DNA of 41,046 nt, taken from assembly GCA_019694575.1 (NCBI GenBank), contig JAIBBR010000034.1, positions 1 through 41,046 on the forward strand. Reading direction: 5' to 3'. The notes beneath the pieces were generated by a model. That model did not search any database, had not been told where the DNA came from, and was given only the letters and a program-made list of their open reading frames with translations. Both the position numbers and the translations under genes were made by a program. Below, piece by piece: positions 9,556 through 41,046 of the stretch. Numbering within the stretch: the first letter of the stretch is position 1; each line of letters opens with the position of its first letter. The stretch is from Myxococcaceae bacterium (GTDB lineage Bacteria; Myxococcota; Myxococcia; Myxococcales; Myxococcaceae).

Positions 9556-9576
9556 TGCAGTAAGAGGCCGCTGCAC

Positions 9577-9864
9577 ATGGCGCTCAGTGGAAAACAGCGG
9601 CGGGCTTTACGGGCCTTGGGTCATCACCTCGACGTGGTGGTGCAAGTGGGTCAGCAGGGTTTGACCGAGGGGGTGGTGAAGGCCACGGCCCAGGCATTGG
9701 CAGATCACGAGCTGGTGAAGGTGAAGTTTCCCGAGGGCCGTGAAGAGCGCGTTGAAATGGTGAAATCGCTCGCGACAGAGACGGGCTCTGAAGTGGCACA
9801 AACGTTGGGCAGAACGGCGCTTTTTTACAAGCGGCGGGCGAAGAAATCGAAGATCGCGATTTAG
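9577..9864 (+). CDS. yhbY: CRS1/YhbY-type RNA-binding protein
   Basis: A 95-residue protein with the complete YhbY/CRM fold: N-terminal LSGKQRRALRALGHHL, the GxxG-type loop VQVGQQGLTEGVVKAT, then ELVKVKFP and LGRTALFYKRR near the end. In E. coli YhbY associates with pre-50S ribosomal particles, so a role in ribosome assembly is likely. The length is normal for the family. ATG 9577 follows the stop of the J-domain gene by 21 nt; GAGG at 9564-9567 may act as its ribosome binding site, so the two genes may be cotranscribed. Confidence 0.92.
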   Translation: MALSGKQRRALRALGHHLDVVVQVGQQGLTEGVVKATAQALADHELVKVKFPEGREERVEMVKSLATETGSEVAQTLGRTALFYKRRAKKSKIAI

Positions 9865-9908
9865 GTGTCAGACTTTACATGTTGTCGTTCGGCTGGCGCT
9901 TCTGATGG

Positions 9909-11177
9909 TCAAGGTTGCACCGCGCGCAACGCCGTCGACACCGCTTCTGTCACCGTCACACTCAGCGACGGGGCGAAATATTGCCGGTTCGACTCGCCGC
10001 TTTTCGCCGACACCGCTGCCTCGGGCTCCAAGTACCCAAAGTAGCCATTGGTGAGTGAAATGCCGGCGGCTGACGGGGCGCTCGCGCCCAACGTCTGCGC
10101 GCTGGCTGCCGAGAGCTCGAACGGAGCCGACCACCACATCAGCTCGCCCAGCCGCAATGCCTGCACTTCGCCTTGAAACGAAGACGACAGACACATGAAA
10201 TTTTCAGCCGGCATGCGAAAGAATGCTCCCACCAACCGCGTGGCGTCGGGCCGTGGCAGCACGAAGCTCACCGTGCTCGCTTTAAGTGACACGTTTGAAA
10301 CGGGCGCCGAAAAGGTGATTGCCTTCATCAACCCGTTCAGCACGTCAGCAAATGCTTGCGGTGTCGTCGAACCACCCACCACCTTGGCGTTGCCTCCCGC
10401 GCTTTGCAGCACCAGGGTAATGCCTGCGCTCGAGGCCTGCGCCGTGGCGAAGAGCCCCGGGTAGTCAGGGTTGAGCAGCCCGTGATCTCTCGGCACCAAA
10501 GTCGGGTGCGCCGACAGCGCCACCAACTGCGCGATGGGCCCGTTGTCGTCTTGAAACCGCGTCACCCGAAAAGAAGTGTCGACGTGGTCGCCGCTCCGGG
10601 CGGCGACGTGGCCTTCGAGCGAGGCTTGCCCGCTCGAGACAGTGGCCGGGCGCAACGACTTGGCCGCCAGGCGCAGCGCCTGCACTGACGCGGTGACCCA
10701 CGCGTCGCGGTCGCGGTGGCGGTAGACGCCGGTGCCTGCCAGCTGTGCCATTGGCCGTGGGTCATAGCCGCCCATCGACGAATGGGTGTGGGTTGCACTC
10801 ACCCACACGCCATCGAGCTTGGCGTCATCGCGAATGGCTCGCGTCATTTCGTCAGTGACGAGCAGCGTGTCGAGCGTTACCCAACCGACACGCGCTTTAC
10901 CGGCTTGCACCACCAATGCCCGGGCCTGAAGCGAAATTTCGGCGCGGCTCGCCGTCGGCCGAAAAGGCCCATAGCCTGCCACCGTGACGGGAAAATCGGG
11001 CTGCAAGACAACTTGCGCCGCGCCTGCCGAGAGTGGGCCTTCTGCGCTCACCGTTGAAATGATTTTGGCAGCCTCGGGAGTGGGTACCCGGCACCAATTG
11101 ATTGACGCGAGCGCATAGGCGCCACCGCCGGCTAGCAAGACCGCCATCGCCAACGCTTTGAGGCGTGCCTTCACCAC
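9909..11177 (-). CDS. Neutral/alkaline ceramidase-like hydrolase, membrane-anchored or secreted
   Basis: A 422-residue protein read from GTG 11177. Residues 5-28 form a hydrophobic signal or anchor segment. The body resembles the N-terminal domain of neutral/alkaline non-lysosomal ceramidases: a GAAQVVLQPDFPVTVAGYG start, DTLLVTDEMTRAI, and the zinc-site-like SATHTHSSMGGYD (His130 and His132), then SAHPTLVPRDHGLLNPDYPG and LQSAGGNAKV. It is shorter than full ceramidases (600-700 residues) and lacks the C-terminal domain. Known members hydrolyse N-acyl sphingosine; many bacterial homologues have unknown substrates. It lies 48 nt downstream of the caspase gene on the same strand and could be the last gene of the sigma-factor operon, acting in the cell envelope. 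Confidence 0.8.
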   Translation of the reverse strand: MVKARLKALAMAVLLAGGGAYALASINWCRVPTPEAAKIISTVSAEGPLSAGAAQVVLQPDFPVTVAGYGPFRPTASRAEISLQARALVVQAGKARVGWVTLDTLLVTDEMTRAIRDDAKLDGVWVSATHTHSSMGGYDPRPMAQLAGTGVYRHRDRDAWVTASVQALRLAAKSLRPATVSSGQASLEGHVAARSGDHVDTSFRVTRFQDDNGPIAQLVALSAHPTLVPRDHGLLNPDYPGLFATAQASSAGITLVLQSAGGNAKVVGGSTTPQAFADVLNGLMKAITFSAPVSNVSLKASTVSFVLPRPDATRLVGAFFRMPAENFMCLSSSFQGEVQALRLGELMWWSAPFELSAASAQTLGASAPSAAGISLTNGYFGYLEPEAAVSAKSGESNRQYFAPSLSVTVTEAVSTALRAVQP

Positions 11178-25392: not shown

Positions 25393-25465
<73 letters not shown>

Positions 25466-27987: not shown

Positions 27988-28668
27988 GTGAAAACCACAT
28001 TGATGGCAGTCGCTTTGTTGGCAACCCTGCCCACCTGGGCGGGTGGCTCGGTTGCGGGTACGGTAACCTTCAAAGGCACCGCTCCTCAATTGCGCAAAAT
28101 CGAGCGTACTGACGCGGCCTGCACGGGCGCGGTCGATGATCCGTCGTTCATCGCCAGCAAAGACGGCAAGGCGCTCGCCAATGTGCACGTGCGTCTGCTC
28201 GATGCGCCGGCGGGGCCGGTACCCACCACACCGGTGAGCGTCAATCAAAACGGCTGCATGTACGTGCCGCATGTGCAAGGCGCCGTCGAGGGCCAGAAGA
28301 TCGCCGTGAAAAACAGCGACATGACGATGCACAACGTGCACGCGTGGGGCAAAAAGGAGGACCAAGAAAAGTCGCTCTTCAATGTGGCCCAGCCTCCCGG
28401 CCCCCGCATTGTCGAAAAAGACCCCAAGGCCTCTGACGTGGTGAAATTGAAATGCGATGTCCACCCGTGGATGACCGCCTACGTCATTTATTCGAAGAAT
28501 GCGTACTTCGCGACGACCGACAGCAACGGAAAGTTCGACATTACCGGGGTGCCGCCCGGCGAGTACACCGTCGAAGCGTGGCACGAGACCTTGGGCACGG
28601 TGACCGCCAAGGTCAAAGTCACTGAAGGCGCGGCGGTTGATCCGAAGCTGACGTTGAGTGTGAAGTAA
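27988..28668 (+). CDS. Secreted cupredoxin-like protein with carboxypeptidase-regulatory-like end
   Basis: A 226-residue protein from GTG 27988 with a signal peptide (LMAVALLATLPTWA). The core has features of a type-1 copper site: MHNVHAWG (His115 and His118) and the Cys-His-Met cluster CDVHPWM (Cys156, His159, Met162), plus the NGCMYVPHV segment seen in related methylamine/plastocyanin-like proteins. The last 50 residues (ATTDSNGKFDITGVPPGEYT) are a carboxypeptidase-regulatory-like beta sandwich. It is probably periplasmic, for electron transfer or copper handling. The heme A and heme O synthase genes just downstream fit a link with cytochrome oxidase, although a separate promoter for those genes is possible in the 142-nt gap. 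Confidence 0.8.
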   Translation: MKTTLMAVALLATLPTWAGGSVAGTVTFKGTAPQLRKIERTDAACTGAVDDPSFIASKDGKALANVHVRLLDAPAGPVPTTPVSVNQNGCMYVPHVQGAVEGQKIAVKNSDMTMHNVHAWGKKEDQEKSLFNVAQPPGPRIVEKDPKASDVVKLKCDVHPWMTAYVIYSKNAYFATTDSNGKFDITGVPPGEYTVEAWHETLGTVTAKVKVTEGAAVDPKLTLSVK

Positions 28669-28810
28669 GGCTCTGCGCCTCAAAAATCAATTAGACAGAC
28701 TAAGTGGGGGCCTTAAGTCCAGGCAGGCTGGGCAACAAGGGTGGCTTGCCGCATGCCGGCCGAGAAGAGTAAGGGTCGGCCTCGCACGCGCAGTACGAAA
28801 GGCCGCTCCA

Positions 28811-29758
28811 ATGGGAGTTCATCGCTTCGCTGTCTCGCTGGCCATCGCCACCTTCGCCCTCACCGTTTTTGGCGGCTTGGTCAGCACCACCGGTTCTGGT
28901 CTCGCGTGTCCCGATTGGCCGCTGTGCGAAGGCCAGTGGATACCGCAGATGGTCAACGGCAAAGAATTCGAACACACCCACCGGTTGGTGGCGTCTTTCG
29001 TCGGGGCGATGACCTTTGGCCTGATGGCGCTGCTCTTCAAACACCGCCGGCGCGAGCGCTTCTTGGTGGGGGCCGGTATCGTTGCGTCGGTGCTGGTGGT
29101 GATTCAGGCGTTGCTCGGCGCGCTCACCGTGAAAATGAAACTGCCTTGGTATGTGTCGTCGACCCACTTGGCGGTGGCGAGCACTTTTTTCGCGCTCACG
29201 GTGTCGCTCGCCTTTTGGACCCGCCCCGAAGACAAGCCGTTGCCGCGCGGTGAAACTGACGGAGCGTACTTGCGCTACATCTACCCCTTGGTGGGCCTCG
29301 TCTTCGCGCAGCTGGTGGCCGGCGGCGTGATGCGGCATTTGAAAGCGGGCTTGGCGTGTGGCTTCGAAGTGCTCACGTGTCAGGGCGCGCTGTGGCCAGT
29401 GTCAGAGACTTATTTCGGCACTCACATTCACATGGTGCACCGCACGCTGGGCATGCTCGCCGGCATCGGGGTGATTGCTTTGGCGGTTGGTTTGCTGCGT
29501 GCGCCCGGTGTTTCGGCGGTGAGCAAACGCCTGGCCGGCACGCTTGGCGTCGGTGTGGTGTTGCAAATCGTTCTCGGGTTCGCTTCGGTGCTGTCGTCAC
29601 GCGATATCGCGGTGATGACCGTGCACTCTTCGTTGGGCATCGCACTGTTCGGCGGGTTGGTTTCGCTGGTGTGGTTGGCGCGGCCGGCACATCGGGTAGC
29701 AGGTGCCCCGGGCGTCGCGGTGCGTGACGGGTTACCCAAGCTCGAGACCGCCTCGTGA
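28811..29758 (+). CDS. ctaA: Heme A synthase (COX15/CtaA family)
   Basis: A 315-residue membrane protein with about eight transmembrane helices that oxidises the C8 methyl of heme O to give heme A for aa3-type oxidase. It has a cysteine pair in the first outer loop (Cys33, Cys39 in GLACPDWPLCEG), the EFEHTHR motif with the conserved glutamate and histidine, STHLAVA, HMVHRTLG and TVHSSLG carrying the other heme-binding histidines, and a second cysteine pair (LACGFEVLTC). This is the Cys-containing B. subtilis-like type. Its stop overlaps the next gene's GTG by 4 nt. Confidence 0.95.
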   Translation: MGVHRFAVSLAIATFALTVFGGLVSTTGSGLACPDWPLCEGQWIPQMVNGKEFEHTHRLVASFVGAMTFGLMALLFKHRRRERFLVGAGIVASVLVVIQALLGALTVKMKLPWYVSSTHLAVASTFFALTVSLAFWTRPEDKPLPRGETDGAYLRYIYPLVGLVFAQLVAGGVMRHLKAGLACGFEVLTCQGALWPVSETYFGTHIHMVHRTLGMLAGIGVIALAVGLLRAPGVSAVSKRLAGTLGVGVVLQIVLGFASVLSSRDIAVMTVHSSLGIALFGGLVSLVWLARPAHRVAGAPGVAVRDGLPKLETAS

Positions 29759-30663
29759 GAGCTGAGCCAATGGAATTGACGGCACAAGCGCTCGCTCCCA
29801 AGCGCACCGTGGCCGTGGCTGACTTGGTGTCGCTTACCAAGCCTCGGCTGTCGGGCTTGGTGCTCTTCACCGCTGCGGGCGGCATGTGGCTCTCGGGCCG
29901 TTCGCTCAGCGTGAGCACCTGGCTTTTGACGCTGCTCGGCACTGCCGGCACCGTGGCCGCGGCGAATGCCTTCAATTGTTATTGGGAGCGCGACATCGAC
30001 GCGCTGATGACCCGCACCCAACGGCGCCCATTGCCGATGGGCCGGTTAGACCCGACCGTGGCGTTGATGTTCGCCTGGTTTTTAACGGCCGTTTCCTTGC
30101 CGCTGCTCTTCATGGGCGCCAATGCGTTGACCGCGCTGCTCGGCGTGATGGCGATGGCGTCTTACGTGTTGCTCTACACCCCGCTCAAGGCGCGCTCCCA
30201 CTGGGCGATTGTGGTGGGAGCGGTGCCCGGTGCGTTGCCTCCGCTCATGGGGTGGACCGCCGCGACCGGTTCGCTTTCGTCACCTGGTTGGGCGCTGTTC
30301 ATGATTCTCTTCGTGTGGCAGCTGCCGCATTCTTTGGCCATCGCGTTGTTTCGCAAGCAAGAATATGCGCGTGCTGGGTTGACCAACGTGCCGCTCGAAT
30401 TGGGTGACGATGTCGCCCGCAACCACGCGCTCATCTACAGCACGTTGCTGTGGCCAGTGAGCATGCTGCCGTACAGCACGGGCATTGCCGGTGTCGGCTA
30501 CGTGGTGGTGGCGGTGATGTTGGGCATCGGCTTCTGGTCAATGGCCTTCTACGGCCAGTGGAAACACCTGGGGGCCACCTGGGCCCGCAGGTTCTTCTTC
30601 GCGTCGTTGGTGTACCTTACCGGCTTGTTTCTAGCCTTGGGTCTCGACGGCGGTCCGCGCTAA
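29755..30663 (+). CDS. ctaB: Protoheme IX farnesyltransferase (heme O synthase)
   Basis: A 302-residue UbiA-superfamily membrane enzyme that attaches farnesyl to heme B, giving heme O, the substrate of the heme A synthase encoded just upstream. The first prenyl-diphosphate/Mg site is NCYWERDIDALMTRTQRRPL (from residue 74); SLTKPRLSGLVLFTA precedes it, and YTPLKARSHWAIVVGAVPGA and the WQLPHSLAIA-x-FRKQEY block follow. Length and helix number are normal. GTG 29755 overlaps the ctaA stop by 4 nt. Confidence 0.96.
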   Translation: MRAEPMELTAQALAPKRTVAVADLVSLTKPRLSGLVLFTAAGGMWLSGRSLSVSTWLLTLLGTAGTVAAANAFNCYWERDIDALMTRTQRRPLPMGRLDPTVALMFAWFLTAVSLPLLFMGANALTALLGVMAMASYVLLYTPLKARSHWAIVVGAVPGALPPLMGWTAATGSLSSPGWALFMILFVWQLPHSLAIALFRKQEYARAGLTNVPLELGDDVARNHALIYSTLLWPVSMLPYSTGIAGVGYVVVAVMLGIGFWSMAFYGQWKHLGATWARRFFFASLVYLTGLFLALGLDGGPR

Positions 30664-30675
30664 ATCGGCGCTTTC

Positions 30676-31650
30676 GTGACGGAGCTCCTCGCGGTCGACA
30701 ACCTTTCGTGTACCCGTGGCGGGCGAACGCTGCTGCATGGGGCGACATTCGCCATCGCGCCGGGCGAAATGTTTGGAGTGCTTGGCCCCAATGGTGCCGG
30801 TAAGTCGACTGTGCTGCGCATTTTGATGGGGCTGTGGCATGCGCAGGCTGGCTCGGTGACGTTTCAAGGCGCGCGGTTGCCACCTCCGTATGACGCGTTG
30901 CGGGCGCAGGCGGGCGTGGTGTTTCAACGCGCTACGCTCGATGACTTGCTGACCGCGCGTGAGAATTTGCTCGCCAGCGGGCGGCTCTATGGGGTGCGCG
31001 GGCCGCGGTTGAACGAGCGGGTGACAGAATTGTTGAAGGTGGCGGGGCTTGTCGATCGCGCCGACGAGCGCGTCGTCACCTGGTCGGGTGGCATGAAACG
31101 CCGACTCGAGCTGATGCGCGCGCTGTTGCACCGCCCCAAGCTCTTGCTGATGGACGAGCCGACGTCAGGCCTCGATGAAGCGGCTTTCAGAACTTTTTGG
31201 GTGCAGGTGAGCCGGCTGCGCATGCAAGAAGGCTTGTCGGTGTTGGTGTCGACACACCGGCCCGATGAGGCACAAAAGTGCGATCGTCTCACGGTGCTCG
31301 ACGAAGGCAAGCAGCTGGTGACCAACACCACCGCCGTGCTTTCGCGGTACGTGGGCGGCGACGTGGTGACGCTCGAGGTCGAGTCGCCCGACGTCACCGC
31401 GGCGGTGCTGCGTGCGTCGCTCAAGGTCGACGCCCGGGTTGTCGACAACACGGTGCGTATCGAGCACCCCGAAGGGCACGCGTTGATACCCCGGGTATTC
31501 GAAGCGCTTGACAGGGGCACAGTGAAGGGCGTGACATTGCGGCCTCCTTCGTTGGCCGATGTTTTCTTTCATCTCACGGGCCGAGCGTTGTCGTCGCGCG
31601 TTTCGAACGAGCCCGAGCCAATGACCATTCGCACCGAGGGGCAGCCATGA
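30676..31650 (+). CDS. ABC transporter ATP-binding protein (ABC-2 type)
   Basis: A 324-residue ATPase from GTG 30676, 12 nt after ctaB. Walker A is GPNGAGKS (37-44), the Q-loop VVFQRATLDD, the signature WSGGMKRRLELMRAL, Walker B LLLMDEPTSGLD, and the H-loop STHRPDEA. A C-terminal domain of about 90 residues is typical of ATPases of drug, heme-related or Nod-type ABC-2 exporters. It pairs with the permease that overlaps it by 4 nt. Location in the heme A operon suggests an oxidase assembly or heme-related function, but the transported compound is unknown. Confidence 0.92.
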   Translation: MTELLAVDNLSCTRGGRTLLHGATFAIAPGEMFGVLGPNGAGKSTVLRILMGLWHAQAGSVTFQGARLPPPYDALRAQAGVVFQRATLDDLLTARENLLASGRLYGVRGPRLNERVTELLKVAGLVDRADERVVTWSGGMKRRLELMRALLHRPKLLLMDEPTSGLDEAAFRTFWVQVSRLRMQEGLSVLVSTHRPDEAQKCDRLTVLDEGKQLVTNTTAVLSRYVGGDVVTLEVESPDVTAAVLRASLKVDARVVDNTVRIEHPEGHALIPRVFEALDRGTVKGVTLRPPSLADVFFHLTGRALSSRVSNEPEPMTIRTEGQP

Positions 31651-32432
31651 ACGCGGCAGCCGAATGGGCGACGGTGCGGGTGCTGTGGGCGCGCGATGTG
31701 AAGCGGTTTTTTCGGCAACGCAGCCGCGTGGTCGGTGCGTTGTTGCAACCGGTGATTTTTTGGTTGGTGATTGGGTCGGGTTTTCGCTCGAGCTTTCGCC
31801 TGCCAGGTATGGAAGACCTCGACTACGCGCAGTACTTTTTTCCCGGCGTGCTGGCGATGGTGCTGCTCTTCTCGTGCATTTACGCCACGGTGACGGTGAT
31901 CGACGACAAGGCGCAAGGCTTTCTGCTCGCGGTGATGGCAGGGCCAGGCTCGCGCTGGGCGTTGGTGATGGGCAAGTGCGCGGGCGCGGTGAGCATCGCG
32001 CTGATGCAGGCGGCCGCTTTTTTGCTGCTGTTGCCCTTTGCTGGAGCGCAGGTGGCGGGGGTCGACTGGTTTTATTTGGTGACGGTGATGCTGGTTTCGT
32101 CGCTGGCGATGGCGGCGGCCGGCTTGACGATGGCGCTGTGGCTCGACTCTCAGCCTGCCTACCTGGCGTTGATGAGCGTGGTGCTGATACCCGCGTGGGT
32201 GCTGTCGGGGGGCCTTTTCCCCTTGAAAGGCGCGGGGCCGGTGCTTTCGGCTTTGATGACGATTAACCCCATGCGTTTTTGTGTCGAAGGTTTGCGGCGG
32301 GCGCTCTATGGCGATGGCGCGGCATTGACCATCGGCTCACTGGCAGAAACCCGCTATGAAGTGTGGGTTTTGCTGTGGTGGGCGTTGGGTTTCGTGGCCA
32401 GCGCCGCTTGGGTGGCGAGCGATCGCAAATGA
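31647..32432 (+). CDS. ABC-2 type transporter permease
   Basis: A 261-residue membrane protein with about six helices. The N-terminus (VRVLWARDVKRFFRQRSRVV), the YAQYFFPGVLAMVLLFSC segment and the signature region IPAWVLSGGLFPL followed by INPMRFCVEGLRRALYG match ABC-2 permeases. ATG 31647 overlaps the ATPase stop by 4 nt, so both are made together. It ends the ctaA-ctaB-ABC gene group; a different set of genes follows after 93 nt. Confidence 0.92.
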   Translation: MNAAAEWATVRVLWARDVKRFFRQRSRVVGALLQPVIFWLVIGSGFRSSFRLPGMEDLDYAQYFFPGVLAMVLLFSCIYATVTVIDDKAQGFLLAVMAGPGSRWALVMGKCAGAVSIALMQAAAFLLLLPFAGAQVAGVDWFYLVTVMLVSSLAMAAAGLTMALWLDSQPAYLALMSVVLIPAWVLSGGLFPLKGAGPVLSALMTINPMRFCVEGLRRALYGDGAALTIGSLAETRYEVWVLLWWALGFVASAAWVASDRK

Positions 32433-32525: not shown

Positions 32526-32831
32526 ATGACTGACGCAGTCGGTGAAAACTTGGCTCAGATTCCGCGCATCAAAACAGACACGTTGGTGCAAAAGGTTGGC
32601 GACACGTGGGTAGCGGTGGGCTCCGACGAGACATTGCATCTTTTCAAAGACGAAGGTGGTCCATCAGAAGTGGGGGGCCGTATCGTCGAATTGATCGACG
32701 GCCGGCGTTCGGTGGAGCAAATTGTCGATACATTGTGTGAAGAATTCGAAGTGCCTCGCGAGCAGTGCGCGAGTGACACGCTGAAGTTTATTGGGGTCTT
32801 GATAGGTAAAAATATTCTCGTCGTCTCGTGA
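32526..32831 (+). CDS. PqqD-like protein (RiPP recognition element)
   Basis: A 101-residue protein if ATG 32526 is used; an in-frame GTG at 32445 adds 27 residues that do not look conserved. The fold-defining pattern of PqqD is present: IKTDTLVQKVGDTWVAVGSD (beta strands), LHLFKDEGGPSEVGGRIVEL (helix 1), IDGRRSVEQIVDTLCEEFEV (helix 2) and the last helix LKFIGVLIGKNILVV. PqqD proteins and their relatives bind leader peptides of ribosomally made peptides and bring them to the modifying enzymes. A suitable precursor, an HprK-like protein and a peptidase-like protein are encoded a few kb downstream on the same strand. The partner assignment is inference. Confidence 0.85.
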   Translation: MTDAVGENLAQIPRIKTDTLVQKVGDTWVAVGSDETLHLFKDEGGPSEVGGRIVELIDGRRSVEQIVDTLCEEFEVPREQCASDTLKFIGVLIGKNILVVS

Positions 32832-32911
32832 ATGTGCGAGCGGTGCGTCGTCACGAATTGGGAGCCGGCTCGCAAGGCCAGTTGCTGGCTTCACCTCGAA
32901 GGGGGAAGGCA

Positions 32912-35900
32912 ATGCTGCGGTTAGGTTTGCGAATGAAGTTCACTTTGGCGCTCGGCGCGTTGTCGGTGGTGGCCGCGGGTTGCCACGGCTGCGATTCTCC
33001 TCCTGAAGAGTGTGAAGACGTGCTGGTCAGCTTCACTGCGCCGACCGATGGCGCGATGGTGGGAGCGTCGGCCGACGTCACCCTCAAAGTTCAGAACAAG
33101 AGCGGGGGCACCGTCGACCTCGAGAGCGCCAAGTTGAAGACGCGCCTGGTCGCGGCTTCTGACTATCACGCGCCCGTTGACGGTGCGATTAACGGTGACA
33201 GCGTGTCGTTCTCGGCGGTGCCGCTCGAGGTGGGCGCCAATTTGCTCACGGCCACGGTGTTGCAAAAGGGCAAAAGCTGCACGGGCACCGAAACGATTAC
33301 GGTGGTGCGCACCGAAATGTCGGCGACGCCGAAAGTGACGGCCTTCACCTTTCAAGGCGACGCGAACAACGACAAAACGCTCAACGCCATGGAGTTGCCA
33401 GGTATGACGCAGGTGGTGGCGCAGCTCGCGGTGACAGACGGTGAGGGCGGCACGGTGTCGGTGAAGAACATGAGTGGCAGCGGAGCCGAGGTCGGTACCG
33501 GCACGGTTGAAAATGGCGCCGCGAACGTGACGTTGTCGTTGCCCACCGGTATGGACGGTTCGTTCATTTTGTTCGCCCAGGTGACGGCGAATGGCAAGAC
33601 CAACGACACCACGGTGAACCCCGCCTCGCAGGTGACGCTGACGATTGACCGCACCGGCCCCGCGGTGTCACTGACGTCGCCCTCGAAGTTGATACAAGGG
33701 CCTGCTGACGACGCCGACATGATGAATACGCCGTTCCAACTGCGCACGTTGGCAATGGCGACGGGCGACGTGGCCACCATTGAAATTGCGATTACCGACG
33801 GTACCCATCAGCAGACCACCGGAGCGGTGCCGCCGTCGAATGGCGCGGTGTCTCGTGACTTCGACGTGCCCGCCGCGGGCACGGTGCAGTACACGGTGAC
33901 CGCGACCGCGCGCGACGCCGCGGGCAATTCTGCCACCGACAGCAAAATGGTGACGGTTGACTTCGACAAGCCCACGGTCGACATCGTGTCTCCGACGGCG
34001 GCGGGTGGACCGTACATGATGTTTACCTTGCCTCTTTCAGTCAACGTGACCGGCGCTGACGGGCAAATGGTGAGCATGTTCACCACGCTCAACAGCACGC
34101 GCCGGTTGCTTGGCCAGCTGGCGGTGGCCAATGGCATGGCCACGGGCAGCGCGAACTTCTTGCCGGGTACGCAGTTGGTCGAAGCTGAAGTGACCGACGC
34201 GGCGGGCAATGTGTCGTCAATTGATTCAGAGACCATTGTGGTGAACCCGTCGACGGGTTGCCCCTTGGTATTCACGCTGCCCTCGAGCAGCCCGGCCTCG
34301 CTCGGTCGCACGGCCGACTTGAACGCCGGCATGCCCGACTTGCAATATGCCTTTGAGGTTGCGTCGTCGGCCGCTTGCGCGGGTAAAATAGTGACGTTGT
34401 CAGTCGCGGGCAGCAATTCGACACTGGCGACCGGTACCACTGACAGCATGGGTGTGCTTCGTTTCAACGTGGTGTCGCTGCCCGACAGCGCGGGCCAACA
34501 GGTCACCATTGATGCCGAAATCGACGATGGTGCCGGTAACAAGACCAAGGTGTCGACGATCATCATCGTCAACCTGTCGACGCCGGCCATCACCCAGCCG
34601 GTCAACAACTCGGTGTTGAACGTGGGCCTCGATTTAGACCTTGCGACGCCTGGCGTACAGCGTGCGCTCTCGTACTCTCCCAATTTGCCGGTGGGTGCGG
34701 TGGCCGCGATTTGCAGTGACGTGCAAATTGCTGGAGCCACCATGGGCGCTTGCCCTGACGGCAGCGGCTTTTTGCTTGCCAACATGGTGGCGCAGGCCGT
34801 GGCGTCATTCACTTTTCCCGACGGTGTTTACAAGCTGAAGCCGGTCTTCACCATCGGCACCAGCCACGACACGGGTGACTACAATGCATTCGTCGTCGAC
34901 AGCGTGCGCCCCAAGGTAACGGCGGTCACCTTCATGAACGACACCAACAATGACAAAAAATTGAATGCCGCAGAGCAGGCGACGGGCGCTCCAGTGGCGG
35001 TCATCAGCTTGATGGGGGTACCCGATGGCCGTTTGGTGACGGTGCGCAAGACGAGTGATAACGCGGTGGCGGGTACAGGTAGCTCGGCGGGTGGTTCTGC
35101 GGCGATCACCTTGTCGGGCCTCATGGTGACCAACACCACCGAAGCTGACTACGCGTTGGTCGTCGAAACGTCTGACGGTGCCAACAACACCAACAAGACT
35201 TCAAACCCGTCAATGGCCGACCCGCTCAACAGCGAAGCCTTCGTCACGTTGCGCGTCGACCGTGTGGCCCCCGCCGTGACGCTGACTGCTCCCAACAAGG
35301 CGCAAATGGGCATTGCCGATGACGGTGATGTCGCGGCCGCCTACCAGCTCAATGTGTCAGCGCTCGTTCCGGCAGACGTGGGCACCAACGGCGTGAAGAT
35401 TCAGCTCGGTGGTGCAGCGACCCAGATGGTCGACGTGACGCCCACGGGTGGAGTGGCCTCTACGGTGTTCAACGTGTCGTCTGCTGGCACGTTGGCGTAC
35501 ACCGTCACGGTGACCGCGACCGACTCCGCGGGCAACGTGAGTACGGCGGTGGTGTTCAACGTCACTGTCGACAACGAAGCTCCGCAGGTGACGTTGGTCA
35601 CCCCCAACGCCGGCGGCAGCCCGTACCCGTCATTTGCAATTTCGACCTTGGTCAACGTGGTCGGCGCGAATGGGCTGAACGCCGTCATTTTTGCCAAGGC
35701 TGACGCCAACCCCGACGCTCAGCTCGACACCTTACCGATCAACATGGCCGGCGTGGCTTCAGGTACCGTGACCTACCCCGCGGGAACACAAGTTGTCGTG
35801 CGCGCCGAAGTGACTGACTTGGCCGGCAACAAAGGCCAAAGCAGCCAAACCATCGGCGTAGCGGGCATGGGTTGCTCGGTGACGTTGACCAACCCGGCGA

Positions 35901-38320
35901 CGAGCCCGGTGTTTTTGAACAAGAGCAATGACGCGGTGCCGGCAACGGCGGCAGTGCTCGACTACACGCTCACCGGCAACAGTGCGAACTGTTTCAACGA
36001 GGCCGTCGCGCTCTATACCGGCCCCATGGGCAGCCAGACGCTGCTTGCATCGACTACCACCGATGCGATGGGTAACTTCAGCTTTCCCCTGCAGTTGGCG
36101 GCGGGAACGCACTCTCTCGAAGCGCAGATGAACGTGGGGCAGCCCACCAGTGACCGTGTCGATGCCACGGTCGACTTGACCGACCCGGTGGTGACTGGAG
36201 TGAGCCCGTCGGCGGCGAACCTGTTCTTTGTGAACCCCAACAACGCCAACCTCGTGGCACCAGCCAACCCAGCCTATGTGGCCGATACGCAGACCGGCAT
36301 GGCCGATGCGCAATACAACCAAGTGTTGACGGTGACGGGCGCCATTGGCGGCACGGTGAGCGTCGTTTACAACGGCGTGGTACGCGCGGGCCCGCAAGCC
36401 ATCGCCGCTGATGGTCAAATCACCATTCCGGTGACGTTGCCGCAAGGCACACAAGGGCAACTGGCCGTTGAAGTGCGCGACCAAGCAGGCAACGTGGTGA
36501 CCACGACTGCCAACGCCAAGGTCGACGTGCTCGCTCCGGGGGCGACCAACCCGATGGCTTCGTTGGTGGTGGGCCAAGAGCGTACCGCCCAGCTCTCGAC
36601 GAGCTGGTCGGGTACCTTTGACGACGGTGCTTCGGCGAGCGCCGGCGATCAACCCGTGGCGTACGACGTGCGGTGGACGACGGCGGTGGTGGCCTCGGGT
36701 GGTTTGGCGAGCAGCGATGAATTCTTCAGCGGAACGAAGGCTTTTCCCCAAGCCATCGTCAACCCGCCCGACCCGCTGAGCTTGACCTTCGATGTGCCGC
36801 CGTTGCTTTCGAACCCCGGGCTCGCGGCCGCTCAGAACTTGAACTCGTACTACGTGTACGTGCGAGCCCGCGACGATGTGGGCAACTACTCGCCCTTCGT
36901 GGCGGGTGTCAAAGTCGACAACACGTTGGCGGCGACGGTGCTGAGCAACCCCGGCTTGCCCGACGGCGGTGCAACCGCTGGTCTGTTCGGCATTGTGATG
37001 TCGTCGAAGGGCAGCGTGAACAACGACAACTTCGACGATCTCGTGGTGGGCACCGACAACGCGGTGAACACCGGCAACATCGCGTACGTTTACTATGGCT
37101 CGGCCGCTGGCCTTAGCAGCGGCAACCGGCAGGCGATTAGCTGCCCAAGCTGCACTGCCAACCCTGATGGTGGCAGCCCCACCGTGGCCGCGCACGTGTT
37201 CGGCGGCGACGTGTCGATGGGCAACGTGGGCGATGACGCTTCGGGAGCGAAGAGCGACGTATTGGTGGGGGCCCGTGGTGGTTCACTTGTCTACTTGTTC
37301 TTCGGTACCGGTACCGGAGCCACGCTCGATCTTGGCGCTTCGAACGTCATCAAGTTTCAGGGCATCGTCGGTAACGAGCTCGGTCGTACCGCGCAAATCA
37401 TCGACGACATCAACGGTGACGGGCTAGACGAGATCTTGATGGCGGCTCCCCGCGCCAATGGCGATCGCGGCAATGTGTATCTCTTCTACGGCCGTTCTAT
37501 CGCCGCGTGGAAAATGCTCGCGCAACCGGTCAACGTGCCCACCACTGCCGACCGGGTCTTCTCGGGGCCGACCACCCCGGCTCAGGCGTTCTTGGGTAGA
37601 AACCGCGGCGGCATGAGCACGATTGGCCAGGCCTCCCCCGACGGTGGCTTTGCTGACTTTTCAATTCCGGCGTCGCGCCAACGCTCGAATAAGCTGTTCA
37701 TTTTCTCATCGCAGAATGTGGCCGATGCGGGAGCGGGCACCGTGTTCACCACGGGCACTGACATGGCGAACCCTGATCAGTCACTGCAGACGATGGCGCC
37801 GCCGACGCCTGACTCGGCTGACTCCATTTTGGGCTACGGGGCGCGCGCGGTTGGCCAGTACAACCTTTTTGGCGGCGCGGCGACCGACTTGGTCGTGGGC
37901 CATTCGGCGATTGGCAACGTGTTCGTCTATGCCGACCGCGTGGGTGCGCTCTTTCCCTCCACGCCGACGCTCACCATTCAACCCCGAACTGGTTGCAACG
38001 TGGTGACGCCCTCGGCGCAGTGCGGCTTTGGCCACGACATTCAGGCCACCGACTTCACTGGTGATGGCCGGCGTGACCTGCTCATTACCGAGCAGTCAGT
38101 CAACGGCAGTGCGTGGCTCTTTGTGCAACGCGCTCTCAGTGGGCAAGAGTTCGACCTCAACGCGGGCGCGGGTTTCTGGCAGTCGCGTCTTCTTTCTGTC
38201 ACGAGTGGCTTCATGTCCAACGTCTCCAGTGGTGACTTCAATGGTGACGGTAAACGCGACTTGGTGGTATCTGACCGCGTCGACGGAAGTGGAAAGGTAT
38301 TCGTATGGCAGCAGCCGTGA
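32912..38320 (+). CDS. Giant lipoprotein with Ig-like super-repeat and C-terminal FG-GAP repeats
   Basis: A 1802-residue protein from ATG 32912, chosen because GGGGGAAGG precedes it and the signal peptide follows (LALGALSVVAAGC, acylated Cys24); a start at GTG 32828 would bury the signal. A Cys-rich N-terminus (CHGCDSPPEEC) is followed by many bacterial Ig-like/HYR-type beta domains with DAAGN- and DLAGN-type loops. A block beginning PKVTAFTF near nt 33329 recurs as PKVTAVTF 1581 nt later, so a multidomain unit of about 430-527 residues is duplicated. From about nt 37000 there are FG-GAP/integrin-alpha-like repeats with calcium loops (DINGDGLDE, DFTGDGRRD, DFNGDGKRD), probably a beta-propeller. 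It should sit on the outer-membrane surface and bind a ligand or another cell. Its 3' end overlaps the precursor-peptide gene by 16 nt. Confidence 0.88.
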   Translation: MLRLGLRMKFTLALGALSVVAAGCHGCDSPPEECEDVLVSFTAPTDGAMVGASADVTLKVQNKSGGTVDLESAKLKTRLVAASDYHAPVDGAINGDSVSFSAVPLEVGANLLTATVLQKGKSCTGTETITVVRTEMSATPKVTAFTFQGDANNDKTLNAMELPGMTQVVAQLAVTDGEGGTVSVKNMSGSGAEVGTGTVENGAANVTLSLPTGMDGSFILFAQVTANGKTNDTTVNPASQVTLTIDRTGPAVSLTSPSKLIQGPADDADMMNTPFQLRTLAMATGDVATIEIAITDGTHQQTTGAVPPSNGAVSRDFDVPAAGTVQYTVTATARDAAGNSATDSKMVTVDFDKPTVDIVSPTAAGGPYMMFTLPLSVNVTGADGQMVSMFTTLNSTRRLLGQLAVANGMATGSANFLPGTQLVEAEVTDAAGNVSSIDSETIVVNPSTGCPLVFTLPSSSPASLGRTADLNAGMPDLQYAFEVASSAACAGKIVTLSVAGSNSTLATGTTDSMGVLRFNVVSLPDSAGQQVTIDAEIDDGAGNKTKVSTIIIVNLSTPAITQPVNNSVLNVGLDLDLATPGVQRALSYSPNLPVGAVAAICSDVQIAGATMGACPDGSGFLLANMVAQAVASFTFPDGVYKLKPVFTIGTSHDTGDYNAFVVDSVRPKVTAVTFMNDTNNDKKLNAAEQATGAPVAVISLMGVPDGRLVTVRKTSDNAVAGTGSSAGGSAAITLSGLMVTNTTEADYALVVETSDGANNTNKTSNPSMADPLNSEAFVTLRVDRVAPAVTLTAPNKAQMGIADDGDVAAAYQLNVSALVPADVGTNGVKIQLGGAATQMVDVTPTGGVASTVFNVSSAGTLAYTVTVTATDSAGNVSTAVVFNVTVDNEAPQVTLVTPNAGGSPYPSFAISTLVNVVGANGLNAVIFAKADANPDAQLDTLPINMAGVASGTVTYPAGTQVVVRAEVTDLAGNKGQSSQTIGVAGMGCSVTLTNPATSPVFLNKSNDAVPATAAVLDYTLTGNSANCFNEAVALYTGPMGSQTLLASTTTDAMGNFSFPLQLAAGTHSLEAQMNVGQPTSDRVDATVDLTDPVVTGVSPSAANLFFVNPNNANLVAPANPAYVADTQTGMADAQYNQVLTVTGAIGGTVSVVYNGVVRAGPQAIAADGQITIPVTLPQGTQGQLAVEVRDQAGNVVTTTANAKVDVLAPGATNPMASLVVGQERTAQLSTSWSGTFDDGASASAGDQPVAYDVRWTTAVVASGGLASSDEFFSGTKAFPQAIVNPPDPLSLTFDVPPLLSNPGLAAAQNLNSYYVYVRARDDVGNYSPFVAGVKVDNTLAATVLSNPGLPDGGATAGLFGIVMSSKGSVNNDNFDDLVVGTDNAVNTGNIAYVYYGSAAGLSSGNRQAISCPSCTANPDGGSPTVAAHVFGGDVSMGNVGDDASGAKSDVLVGARGGSLVYLFFGTGTGATLDLGASNVIKFQGIVGNELGRTAQIIDDINGDGLDEILMAAPRANGDRGNVYLFYGRSIAAWKMLAQPVNVPTTADRVFSGPTTPAQAFLGRNRGGMSTIGQASPDGGFADFSIPASRQRSNKLFIFSSQNVADAGAGTVFTTGTDMANPDQSLQTMAPPTPDSADSILGYGARAVGQYNLFGGAATDLVVGHSAIGNVFVYADRVGALFPSTPTLTIQPRTGCNVVTPSAQCGFGHDIQATDFTGDGRRDLLITEQSVNGSAWLFVQRALSGQEFDLNAGAGFWQSRLLSVTSGFMSNVSSGDFNGDGKRDLVVSDRVDGSGKVFVWQQP

Positions 38321-38466
38321 ACCCAGAGAAGCCGGCCTCTATTCAGAAGAAGCCGTATCGCAAGCCGACTTTGGAGACCGTGCGTCTTGAGGCTCCTTCT
38401 CTGCTGACGATTACATGCCCCGAAGGCCAACAAGACTGCGGTGGTTTTTGTGACTTTACGTGCTGA
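38305..38466 (+). CDS. Candidate RiPP precursor peptide with YxxPxL leader and four-Cys core
   Basis: A 53-codon gene overlapping the end of the giant lipoprotein gene. GGAAAGG (38291-38297) lies 7 nt before ATG 38305, supporting that start; GTG 38317 (GTGA overlap) is an alternative giving 49 residues. The leader-like part IQKKPYRKPTLETVRLEA contains Tyr18-x2-Pro21-x-Leu23, the motif that lasso-peptide and related leaders present to PqqD-like (B1) proteins. After LEAPSLLTIT comes a core-like end with Cys38, Cys45, Cys49 and Cys53 (C-x6-C-x3-C-x3-C, Cys last). The PqqD-like gene upstream and the HprK-like and S26-like genes 3 nt and 0.75 kb downstream make a modified-peptide product likely. 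Whether the modification is a disulfide, thioether, phosphate or macrocycle cannot be seen. Confidence 0.72.
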   Translation: MAAAVNPEKPASIQKKPYRKPTLETVRLEAPSLLTITCPEGQQDCGGFCDFTC

Positions 38467-38469
38467 CGC

Positions 38470-39225
38470 GTGACGTTGCTTTGGTGTGGGCCATTTAAGG
38501 TCGAAGTCGACGACTCTGTACTCGCGCTCGCCGGTGACCGTTGTTTGCACCGTTCCTTCATCACCGAGGGAGCGGCCGATTTCTGTTTGAAGCGCGTAGC
38601 GACGCATTCACCGGGCGCGCGGCCACTCAAGGCGCAGCATTCGAGTGACGGCTGTGTCGCGCTCAAGGGCAATACGCTTGAAGCGCACCTGCCTGACACC
38701 CTGTACCCCGCAGAACTCGCGCTGCGGGTGCTTTACCAAGTGGCGTTGGCCCGGGCTGGCGCAGTGCTCGCACACAGCGCCGGCATCGCCGTTGGCGAGC
38801 AAGCCGTGGTTGCGCTCGGCTTGAGCGGAGCAGGGAAGACCACGTTCTCAACCCTCGCCGTCGAATACGGAGGTGCCCGGCTGCTTTCTGACGAAATCTG
38901 CGCGCTCTTCCCCGACGGGCGCGTGTACGGCACTCCGTTTCGCTCTGACGGTCAATGCACACCCACGCCCGAAGTCGCGCAGCTCAAATCGATTCTCGTG
39001 CTGCGCAAAGAGCCCTTCGAGCGCATTGAACCCGTCAACACGAGCACGGTATTGCCAGCGCTGTTGACTCAAACGTACCGACCATTCGTGGCCGAAGAGC
39101 TCAGCGCTACCGAGGCGTTCGGCCGCTTGTCTGCCACCGCGGCGCAGGTAGGCGTGCGCGCCTTCGCCTTTCGCAAACACCCCGCTGCGGGCCGCTTCAT
39201 CGCCGACTGGGTGCGAAATGGATGA
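38470..39225 (+). CDS. HPr kinase/phosphorylase-like ATPase
   Basis: A 251-residue protein from GTG 38470, 3 nt after the peptide stop. It has the P-loop GLSGAGKTT (117-125), preceded by HSAGIAVGEQAVVAL and followed by GARLLSDEICALFPDG, the HprK-type acidic motif, and the late VAQLKSILVLRK segment. HprK-like proteins of this size without the N-terminal HprK domain are found in lasso-peptide and other PqqD-associated clusters; in paeninodin-type clusters such a kinase phosphorylates the precursor. Whether this one phosphorylates a Ser or Thr of the neighbouring peptide (for example Thr35, Thr37 or Thr52) is a hypothesis. Its end overlaps the next gene by 8 nt. Confidence 0.82.
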   Translation: MTLLWCGPFKVEVDDSVLALAGDRCLHRSFITEGAADFCLKRVATHSPGARPLKAQHSSDGCVALKGNTLEAHLPDTLYPAELALRVLYQVALARAGAVLAHSAGIAVGEQAVVALGLSGAGKTTFSTLAVEYGGARLLSDEICALFPDGRVYGTPFRSDGQCTPTPEVAQLKSILVLRKEPFERIEPVNTSTVLPALLTQTYRPFVAEELSATEAFGRLSATAAQVGVRAFAFRKHPAAGRFIADWVRNG

Positions 39226-39955
39226 AGTCGCACAAGTCCTGAAGGCCAGCCCCGAAGGCGCCACCGTGTGGCTCGCGGTGCGCGGCCGCAGCATGGCTCC
39301 GCTGTTGCGCAGCGGAGATAAGTTGAAGATTTACCGGTGCAGCCAACGGAGCCTTGAAAAAGGCGACATCGCGATTTTGTTGCGTCAAGACGGCACGCTG
39401 GTGGCCCATTTGGTGACATGCCCCGAGCCGCTGCAGACGTCGACGTACTGGGGTGAAGCTGACGTGCTGCCCGCAGAAGCCTTGGGCCGTGCCGTCGCGG
39501 TGCGCCGGGGCCGTACCCTGTGGCGCATTGGTTCAATCACCCGCAGCGGCATTTGGGCCGGGCATCGCTGGTTGCAGAACCCCAAAATTCACCAAGCCGT
39601 CGACGCCCTGCGCACCGGGTTGATGGCGCCGCAGACGGCGTGGCTGCGCGCGCGCATGCTACGGCCCACGGTACGCACCCTGCGCGCCGATGAAGTGAGC
39701 CCATTGGTGACGTTCTTGGGAGACCGGGGCCGCACGCCTGCAGTGAGCACGCTGATTAAATGGTGTTCTGAAGGCGCGGTGGCCGGAGCGTTCGACAAGG
39801 CGTCGCGGTTGTGCGCCGTCGCCGTGTGGGACGCGGGCAAAGTAGCCTTCATCGAGTCGCGGGTGTGGGTGCGTGGGTTGGAAATCGAAGCGCAATTGGT
39901 GGCTGAGCTCGAAACGCAAGCAGCGCGGCGCGAGCCGGTGCCCGATGAGCACTGA
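39218..39955 (+). CDS. S24/S26 (signal-peptidase-like) protein with extra C-terminal domain
   Basis: A 245-residue protein. The N-terminal part has VRGRSMAPLLRSGDKLKIYR, the S26/LexA-type box with the SxM nucleophile Ser25, then KGDIAILLRQDGTLVAHLVT with a histidine (His64) where bacterial LepB has lysine; a Ser-His arrangement is known from SipW/ER-type signal peptidases. No strong membrane anchor is evident. The C-terminal 90 residues (VRTLRADEVSPLVTFLGDRG; then VWVRGLEIEAQLVAEL) faintly resemble a GNAT acyltransferase, with an RGxxI segment, but this is uncertain. In PqqD/HprK gene neighbourhoods such peptidases are plausible leader peptidases. It overlaps both neighbouring genes. Confidence 0.72.
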   Translation: MDEVAQVLKASPEGATVWLAVRGRSMAPLLRSGDKLKIYRCSQRSLEKGDIAILLRQDGTLVAHLVTCPEPLQTSTYWGEADVLPAEALGRAVAVRRGRTLWRIGSITRSGIWAGHRWLQNPKIHQAVDALRTGLMAPQTAWLRARMLRPTVRTLRADEVSPLVTFLGDRGRTPAVSTLIKWCSEGAVAGAFDKASRLCAVAVWDAGKVAFIESRVWVRGLEIEAQLVAELETQAARREPVPDEH

Positions 39956-40865
39956 GGGCGCGGCGGCGGCGCCTTTTTCGTCACGCGCTGGCAACCCATT
40001 CATCGCCGACGGAGCGTTGCTCGCCATCACCCTTTTGTGGGGCGTCACCTTCGTCACGGTGAAAGACGCGATGGCGCTGGCCGACCCGGTGTCATTCGTG
40101 GCGATGCGCTTCGCTTTGGGAGCTGCCGTCACCGCGTTGATTGCCCGTCGCGCGCTCAGGTCGGCCGCGCTTTGGCGTACCGGCTTTTTTCTCTCGGTTT
40201 TTCTCTTTTTGGGCTTCATTTTTCAAACCTGGGGGCTCAAGCACACCACGCCGTCGCGCAGTGCCTTCATTACCGGTTTGAGCATGGTGATGGTGCCGTT
40301 TGCGTCGTGGTGGCTGTCGAAGCGGCGGCCCAAGGCGGTGGCGATGCTCGGCACCGGTATCGCGGTGGCGGGTCTGTTCATTCTCACCAACGCCGGTACC
40401 GACGGGTCGGGCCTCAACCTGGGTGACGGCCTCACCGTGCTGTGTACTTTCGCCTATGCGATGCACATCGCACTCACCGAGAAGTGGGGGCCAGCGCACG
40501 CTCCGATTGCGCTGGTGACTGCGCAGCTCACCGGTGTGGCGCTGCTGGCGTTGCTGTGCCTGCCCTTCGTCGACCTCCAGGTGTCACCGTCGCGCGATTT
40601 GTGGCTCGCCGTGGCCATCACGGGCGTGCTGGCCACGGCGGTCGCGATTAGCATTTACACCTGGGCGCAAGCGCGCACCTCGGCGGTGAAGGCGGCGCTG
40701 ATGTTCTCGCTCGAGCCGGTGTTCGCGGCGCTGTATTCTGCGGGTACGGGCCGCGAGGTGCTCGGTCAGCGAGAATACGTCGGAGGTGCGCTCATCATCG
40801 CCGGTGTGCTGGTGGCCGAAGTAGGAGGAGCGCTGCTGCGGCGTTCAAGCCAGCCCGTTCATTGA
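39945..40865 (+). CDS. EamA/DMT-family transporter
   Basis: A 306-residue membrane protein from ATG 39945, which overlaps the previous gene by 11 nt. It has about ten hydrophobic segments in two EamA halves: the first has LLAITLLWGVTFVTVKDAM, AMRFALGAAVTALIARR and FQTWGLKHTTPSRSAFITGL; the second has AYAMHIALTEKWG, WAQARTSAVKAALMFSLEPV and GGALIIAGVLVAEVG. Members export amino acids, metabolites or drugs. The overlap implies cotranscription with the peptide genes, so a role in exporting a product or precursor is possible, though peptides are not the usual DMT substrates. It could equally be an unrelated gene read from the same message. Confidence 0.9.
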   Translation: MSTEGAAAAPFSSRAGNPFIADGALLAITLLWGVTFVTVKDAMALADPVSFVAMRFALGAAVTALIARRALRSAALWRTGFFLSVFLFLGFIFQTWGLKHTTPSRSAFITGLSMVMVPFASWWLSKRRPKAVAMLGTGIAVAGLFILTNAGTDGSGLNLGDGLTVLCTFAYAMHIALTEKWGPAHAPIALVTAQLTGVALLALLCLPFVDLQVSPSRDLWLAVAITGVLATAVAISIYTWAQARTSAVKAALMFSLEPVFAALYSAGTGREVLGQREYVGGALIIAGVLVAEVGGALLRRSSQPVH

Positions 40866-40912: not shown

Positions 40913-40929
40913 ACGGGAATCTAACCCGT
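40913..40929. repeat. Small hairpin after the transporter gene
   Basis: ACGGG-AATCTAA-CCCGT, a 5-bp perfect stem 47 nt after the transporter stop. There is no T-run behind it, so termination by this hairpin alone is doubtful. Confidence 0.3.
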
Positions 40930-40969
40930 ATCGGTCACCGGGGGGAGAGGGAACACCGCGTGACTTCTG

Positions 40970-41006
40970 CCGATAACTGAAGAGTTTCGACGCTTTTCAG
41001 AATCGG
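40970..41006 (+). promoter_or_regulatory. Leader hairpin touching the ribosome binding site of the last gene
   Basis: CCGAT-AA-CTGAAGAG pairs with CTTTTCAG-A-ATCGG around TTTCGACG, with one G-U pair and a small internal bulge. Its 3' arm ends directly at the AAAGGAG Shine-Dalgarno sequence (41007-41013) of the gene starting at 41021. The structure could regulate initiation, but no known riboswitch or thermometer class is recognised. Confidence 0.4.
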
Positions 41007-41020
41007 AAAGGAGCCACGCG

Positions 41021-41046
41021 GTGAAAACAGACTGTAACGTGTCCCA
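41021..41046 (+). CDS. Start of a gene cut by the window end
   Basis: GTG 41021 follows AAAGGAG (41007-41013) at good spacing and opens a frame (MKTDCNVS) to the window end. Only eight codons are visible, so nothing can be said about the product, except that it lies in the same direction as the peptide operon and has its own 155-nt leader with a strong hairpin. Confidence 0.45.

Follow-up and report, generated by a model that had tools for sequence, protein, structure and literature searches.

A Myxococcota gene cassette with a probable LPP-like RiPP core and a giant surface lipoprotein

The 41,046 nucleotides analysed here (hereafter the window) make up contig C57 of a 5.28 Mb genome, assembled in 220 contigs and 98.9% complete. 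Its plus strand carries, in order, genes for a PqqD-like RRE protein, a giant FG-GAP/Ig lipoprotein (LP), a small peptide, an HprK-like kinase, an S24/S26 peptidase and an EamA transporter:

32526..32831, + strand: PqqD-like discrete RRE, predicted leader binder (ATG start, 101 aa, PF05402 E 5.7e-14)
32828..38320, + strand: LP, giant surface lipoprotein (ORF of 1830 aa; Ig-like and FG-GAP repeats)
38305..38466, + strand: precursor peptide, 53 aa, 4 Cys (a [YW]xxP peptide conserved 3′ of LP)
38356..38373, + strand: YRKPTL leader motif, residues 18-23, predicted RRE-binding site (conserved in aligned peptides)
38377..38379, + strand: codon of Thr25, position 8 from Tyr; candidate phospho-acceptor or RRE contact (Ser/Thr in 35/39 distinct peptides)
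38470..39225, + strand: HprK/PEPCK-fold P-loop kinase, 251 aa (His102, P-loop 117-125 and Asp141-Glu142 invariant)
39218..39955, + strand: S24/S26-like Ser-His-Asp peptidase with truncated GNAT (PF00717, 4.8e-5; structure model)
39945..40865, + strand: EamA-type transporter, possible exporter (ATG start, PF00892 E 5.2e-33)

From LP onward the genes are spaced by overlaps of 16, 8 and 11 nt and one gap of 3 nt, and the coordinates agree with the tight, same-strand packing that an earlier note on this DNA had described. The 16-nt overlap is that of the peptide gene with the LP stop. The peptide ATG has a Shine-Dalgarno sequence, GGAAAGG, 7 nt upstream. The LP reading frame opens at 32828, but translation more likely begins at the ATG at 32912, which has AGGGGGAAGG upstream of it. 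Simple scans for promoters and terminators gave no excess over shuffled sequences.

The region 5′ of the cassette (27988-32432) harbors genes reading as heme A/O synthase (CtaA/CtaB-like) and as a DrrAB-like pair of the ABC-2 transporter type. The CtaB-like cluster also adjoins the RRE gene in loci L087, L088, L090 and L092. The ABC transporter is not kept beside the cassette in relatives, and was rejected as a part of the system. A tRNA gene lies further upstream on the minus strand (25393-25465, Rfam). At the other end, the ~125 bp of 40921-41046 are found again where several further contigs end, and are probably a repeat at which the assembly broke. Other contigs of the same genome hold a second S26-PqqD pair (C190; L165 2129-2775) and a second HprK-like gene (C93; L105 9528-10337).

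The RRE gene is the conserved first gene of the cassette. Its family profile matches the lasso RRE TbiB1 (5v1u, 3.8e-8) and PqqD (5sxy, 4.3e-7). The LP gene always separates the RRE gene from that of the peptide. LP displays FG-GAP (E 2.4e-18) and bacterial Ig-like Big_13 (E 8.9e-9) domains and a lipobox, AAGC; a lipobox-like motif is found in 50 of 55 homologues. A literature search combining FG-GAP and PqqD in myxobacteria found no related paper.

For comparison, 98 relatives were searched with the kinase and the peptidase, and 195 genomes of the phylum with the RRE profile, and the loci were then read. Genes in these GC-rich loci were called with a simple script, and the calls were read through as a check. 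Families here are the GTDB families of the phylum, labelled f1, f2, f3 and so on, and loci carry L numbers. The window's own family, f1, is taken as Myxococcaceae in the GTDB sense because its named members include Hyalangium versicolor and Citreicoccus inhibens. The order PqqD-LP-peptide-HprK, usually followed by S24/S26, occurs in f1, f3, f7, f9 and f11. The f2 cassette also has HprK at the expected place, and no S26 gene was identified adjoining it (L140); in f24 the RRE, LP and peptide are present. A small [YW]xxP ORF lies directly 3′ of LP in all 47 loci in which the LP 3′ end is present, spread over seven GTDB families, starting no more than ~75 nt from the LP stop and often overlapping it. 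The earlier note had proposed that the RRE, the YxxP precursor, the HprK-like kinase and the S24/S26 peptidase form one cassette tied to a surface lipoprotein, to be checked by the neighbourhoods of other Myxococcota. Both the conserved order and the co-occurrence of the genes support this proposal, and the co-conservation that it called for was found.

Within f1, none of 58 genomes has the cassette-type HprK and lacks PqqD (Fisher 3e-13; 2e-6 at the genus level), and PqqD and S26 also co-occur (Fisher 6e-6); shared ancestry is uncorrected in these tests, as in the E-values given throughout. The three f1 genomes with the RRE and no strong kinase match are fragmented or incomplete assemblies. 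Myxobacterial genomes are gene-dense, and in genera g5 and g17 the genes for HprK and S26 are not next to the others but at another locus or some way off, as might be expected if unrelated genes had merely been packed side by side. Yet in these genera they still co-occur with the set, so that co-occurrence is kept where linkage is lost, and the order is conserved over families. Because the [YW]xxP peptide follows LP in 47/47 loci of seven families, the gene set is not a chance one; the comparative data refute chance neighbourhood, to which we assign almost no probability.

The window peptide displays the motif Y18-R-K-P-T-L23 and cysteines at residues 38, 45, 49 and 53, in agreement with the YxxPxL leader and C-terminal cysteines read earlier from the letters. 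It has no Pfam or NCBIfam match, and the peptides of five relatives have no NCBIfam match. An alignment of 42 peptides from seven families shows that Y/W1, P4 and a hydrophobic residue at position 6 are conserved; the leader motif appears in 3.6% of shuffled peptides. Position 8 from Tyr is Ser/Thr in 35 of the 39 distinct peptides, against a Ser/Thr background of 14%. A hydrophobic pair follows about 14-19 residues from Tyr, with a Ser/Thr exactly three residues on in 22 of 31 scored peptides. By its substitution pattern the peptide is under purifying selection, dN being well below dS in most close pairs (e.g. dN 0.03 vs dS 0.21).

The rest of the peptide is hypervariable, and the number of cysteines ranges from 0 to 8 among relatives. 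Four cysteines are therefore not a trait of the family, and the weight that the earlier note had placed on them as a defining feature was not borne out. The same range led us to reject them as a lanthipeptide or sactipeptide signature, and with the cores so variable no single chemistry fits all. Many f1 peptides do carry 2-8 Cys in the C-terminal part, as would a disulfide-bonded, secreted Cys-rich factor for which the RRE is only a chaperone and the kinase a processing switch. However, the f9 and f11 peptides from the same cassette have 0-1 Cys (their termini are of the YQGF/YGxF type), so that cysteine chemistry is not the common function, and we regard such a factor as improbable.

The model of the kinase (pLDDT 93.6) has the PEPCK/HprK fold. 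Compared with solved structures, among which no LPP or lasso kinase is listed, it matches PEPCK at 1e-8 and HprK/P at 3e-4 in Foldseek, with a VIA Z of ~13 to PEPCK over the whole model. His102, the P-loop and Asp141-Glu142 are invariant. The match to HprK_rel_A (2.6e-6) is below cut-off. In L145 (f9, 9356-10513) an HprK-like kinase and an S26-like peptidase with Cys at the Ser position are joined in one ORF.

The peptidase model (pLDDT 88.2) has two domains, the peptidase at residues 4-99 and a truncated GNAT at residues 149-241. The former resembles the LexA C-domain (best row residues 13-99, Z 10.8, 84 aligned, 2.5 Å), and the latter resembles GNAT proteins, best Ard1/NatA (Z 12.9, 92 aligned, 2.5 Å). 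The C-terminal part of a relative's peptidase matches PF00583 at 1.1e-12, and the acetyl-CoA motif of the window GNAT domain looks degenerate. The triad S25, H64 and D82 is conserved in the cassette copies of the peptidase; in the f9 enzymes and in that of L150 (f11), Cys replaces the Ser. Among the nine S26-GNAT copies lacking partners the triad is damaged in six. The partnerless copies without the catalytic Ser and/or His are L062, L064, L065, L066, L103 and L104. Of the partnerless copies, L104 is an additional one in a cassette-bearing genome, and the others are in cassette-free genomes that are probably of Corallococcus or Myxococcus type.

EamA adjoins many f1 cassettes and those of f3 (L138) and f7 (L143), and is also kept beside S26 in the cassette-free genomes L100-L103. 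These neighbourhoods tie it weakly to the cassette, of which it may be an exporter. In f7, f9 and f11 a radical SAM gene (PF04055) comes after the kinase, directly 3′ of it in L143 (13325-14494), L146 (9747-10769), L150 (3683-4696) and L149 (12799-14991). Those of f9 and f11 are similar to YydG, a peptide epimerase (6e-16 and 1e-21, both below cut-off), and the L149 ORF also matches methyltransferase families. The window cassette has no radical SAM gene.

Several known systems share parts with the cassette. Paeninodin-type phosphorylated lasso clusters have in common with it an RRE, a [YW]xxPx[LV] leader (YxxPxL in the window) and an HprK-like kinase (PMC13381572), and the best NCBIfam match of the RRE, below cut-off, is lasso_PqqD_Bac. 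The cassette might thus descend from such a cluster by loss of the cyclase and the B2 peptidase. The earlier note had seen neither enzyme, and the genome agrees with it: PF13471, the B2 peptidase, is absent from the 98.9%-complete genome, and the cassette has no Asn-synthetase-like cyclase, the two full-length matches (C220 and C108) lying in polysaccharide-type loci. A lasso cluster was rejected on these grounds. Moreover, the set without cyclase is the same from family to family and hence stable, not in decay; a degraded lasso cluster is very improbable.

The SynChlorMet cassette of NCBIfam (ScmC/ScmD/ScmE/ScmF), on which no paper was found in the literature searched, likewise has HprK-like, PqqD-like and radical SAM proteins. 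The matches are weak, of the window RRE to ScmD and of relatives to ScmC and ScmE/ScmF, all below cut-off, and radical SAM is absent in the window. The HPr-rel-A and HPr-rel-B systems (TIGR04352, TIGR04355) share an HprK-related kinase; the window kinase scores 26.7 bits for TIGR04352 and 20 bits for TIGR04355, against cut-offs of 200. A defence system was rejected, there being no PADLOC match for the RRE, peptide, kinase, peptidase or EamA.

The closest likeness is to the linear polyphosphorylated peptide (LPP) RiPPs, encoded by lppAKBSDN in Paenibacillus alginolyticus (Popov 2026, PMC13381572). There LppB, a discrete RRE, LppK, which is HprK-like, and LppS, which is SipW-like with the triad S29/H68/D93, phosphorylate and cleave a YxxP precursor (PMC13381572). 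The myxobacterial cassette shares four core parts with it: the YxxP precursor, the discrete RRE, the HprK kinase and the Ser-His-Asp leader peptidase. Neither has a cyclase, and in both the precursor has a conserved N-terminal part and a highly variable C-terminus. The RRE counterpart in the window is seen in PF05402 and the TbiB1/PqqD profile matches, and that of the kinase in the predicted fold and the invariant residues. For the signal-peptidase-I-like enzyme the window has the triad S25/H64/D82 in a fold of the S24/LexA type. The YxxPx[VL] motif with a variable C-terminus is present in the window peptide (YRKPTL) and in the 42 aligned peptides.

The differences are also clear. The LPP precursor consensus is YxxPxVLxHQxIxFETxxS, with a phosphorylated Ser at position 19 (PMC13381572), whereas the window peptide reads YRKPTLETVRLEAPSLLTIT, has Ile rather than Ser at 19, and departs from the consensus beyond YxxPx[VL]; the leader consensus of the cassette has Ser/Thr at 8 and no HQ motif. 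An NTP-transferase is absent from the cassette, the two PF14907 matches being on other contigs, one of them with polysaccharide-type genes. No MsbA-like exporter is present in the cassette as read up to the contig end at 41046, the transporters on either side being EamA downstream and the unconserved DrrAB-like pair upstream, and none was noted in relatives. In turn, the cassette alone has its RRE and precursor genes separated by that of a giant FG-GAP/Ig lipoprotein, and it adds a peptidase-GNAT fusion, EamA or, in three families, radical SAM. The host of LPPs is Bacillota (PMC13381572), as opposed to Myxococcota here.

As its cassette has neither NTP-transferase nor MsbA exporter and its leader follows the consensus only in part, the window is filed as LPP-like and not as LPP. 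The earlier note had held that the set fits no standard class and may be minimal or new. Since the core matches the Bacillota LPP RiPPs (PMC13381572), the system is not wholly unclassifiable; its lipoprotein and some further parts are new. By this comparison it appears to be an LPP-like RiPP system with new parts, not a proven member of the LPP class.

Some of the genomes hold a second, paralogous cassette with the order S26-PqqD-beta-propeller surface protein-peptide-HprK (L162 4284-9587, L163, L164 and L168). Presumably these genomes are of Archangium type. The paralogous peptides (L162, L164 and L168) read YEPPAVLWEQPFVALAQVS and agree with the LPP consensus in several places, among them Ser 19.

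We propose the following path. The PqqD-like RRE would bind the leader through Y18-x-x-P-x-L. The HprK-like kinase would phosphorylate a Ser/Thr of the precursor, either at position 8 (Thr25) or after the L-L/L-F pair (Thr35/Thr37), and the Ser-His-Asp peptidase would cut the leader near the hydrophobic pair. In relatives with an intact GNAT the new N-terminus may perhaps be acetylated, and in three families the radical SAM protein would add another change, YydG-epimerase-like in f9 and f11. The core would then be exported, conceivably by EamA, and at the cell surface it would act together with the co-translated lipoprotein or be displayed by it. We infer binding, phosphorylation and cleavage from homologies and conserved residues. 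For surface display, the fixed position of LP and the frequent overlap of its gene with that of the peptide suggest that LP is the surface partner of the peptide, which is the most economical reading.

The peptide could also have another role, as an intracellular regulator or adaptor that the kinase phosphorylates on the position-8 Ser/Thr; PqqD would read this state and control the lipoprotein or its export. In favour of this, the gene for LP is never parted from that for the peptide and often overlaps it, and it is the RRE-binding segment, not the core, that holds the best conserved Ser/Thr. However, the set is accompanied by a Ser-His-Asp peptidase that is itself conserved, three families have radical SAM genes added to the cassette, and C-termini that are hypervariable and in many cases rich in Cys typify cores and not regulators. 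Such a regulator seems unlikely. We prefer biosynthesis, and consider it probable that the cassette represents, within Myxococcota, a branch of LPP-like RiPP biosynthesis that serves the giant surface lipoprotein. More tentatively, it may represent a phylum-wide RiPP class in which the peptide, phosphorylated, cut and maybe capped by the peptidase-acetyltransferase fusion, is not a free product and serves as a dedicated partner, bound or displayed by the giant lipoprotein of the same operon.

The 2026 description of LPPs confined them to Bacillota and gave their role as unknown (PMC13381572), and a related cassette is now found in seven myxobacterial families, fixed to one giant surface lipoprotein. 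A role as surface partner is a testable hypothesis for phosphorylated leader peptides. The families also point to a modular scheme, with GNAT and radical SAM enzymes added to one RRE-kinase-peptidase core. Tests in cultured strains look possible, as the carriers of the cassette probably include Stigmatella aurantiaca DW4/3-1 and Archangium gephyra. In L166 (2291-11147), from another family, a radical SAM protein and an S26-like protein occur with a small protein that has a WxxPxL motif.
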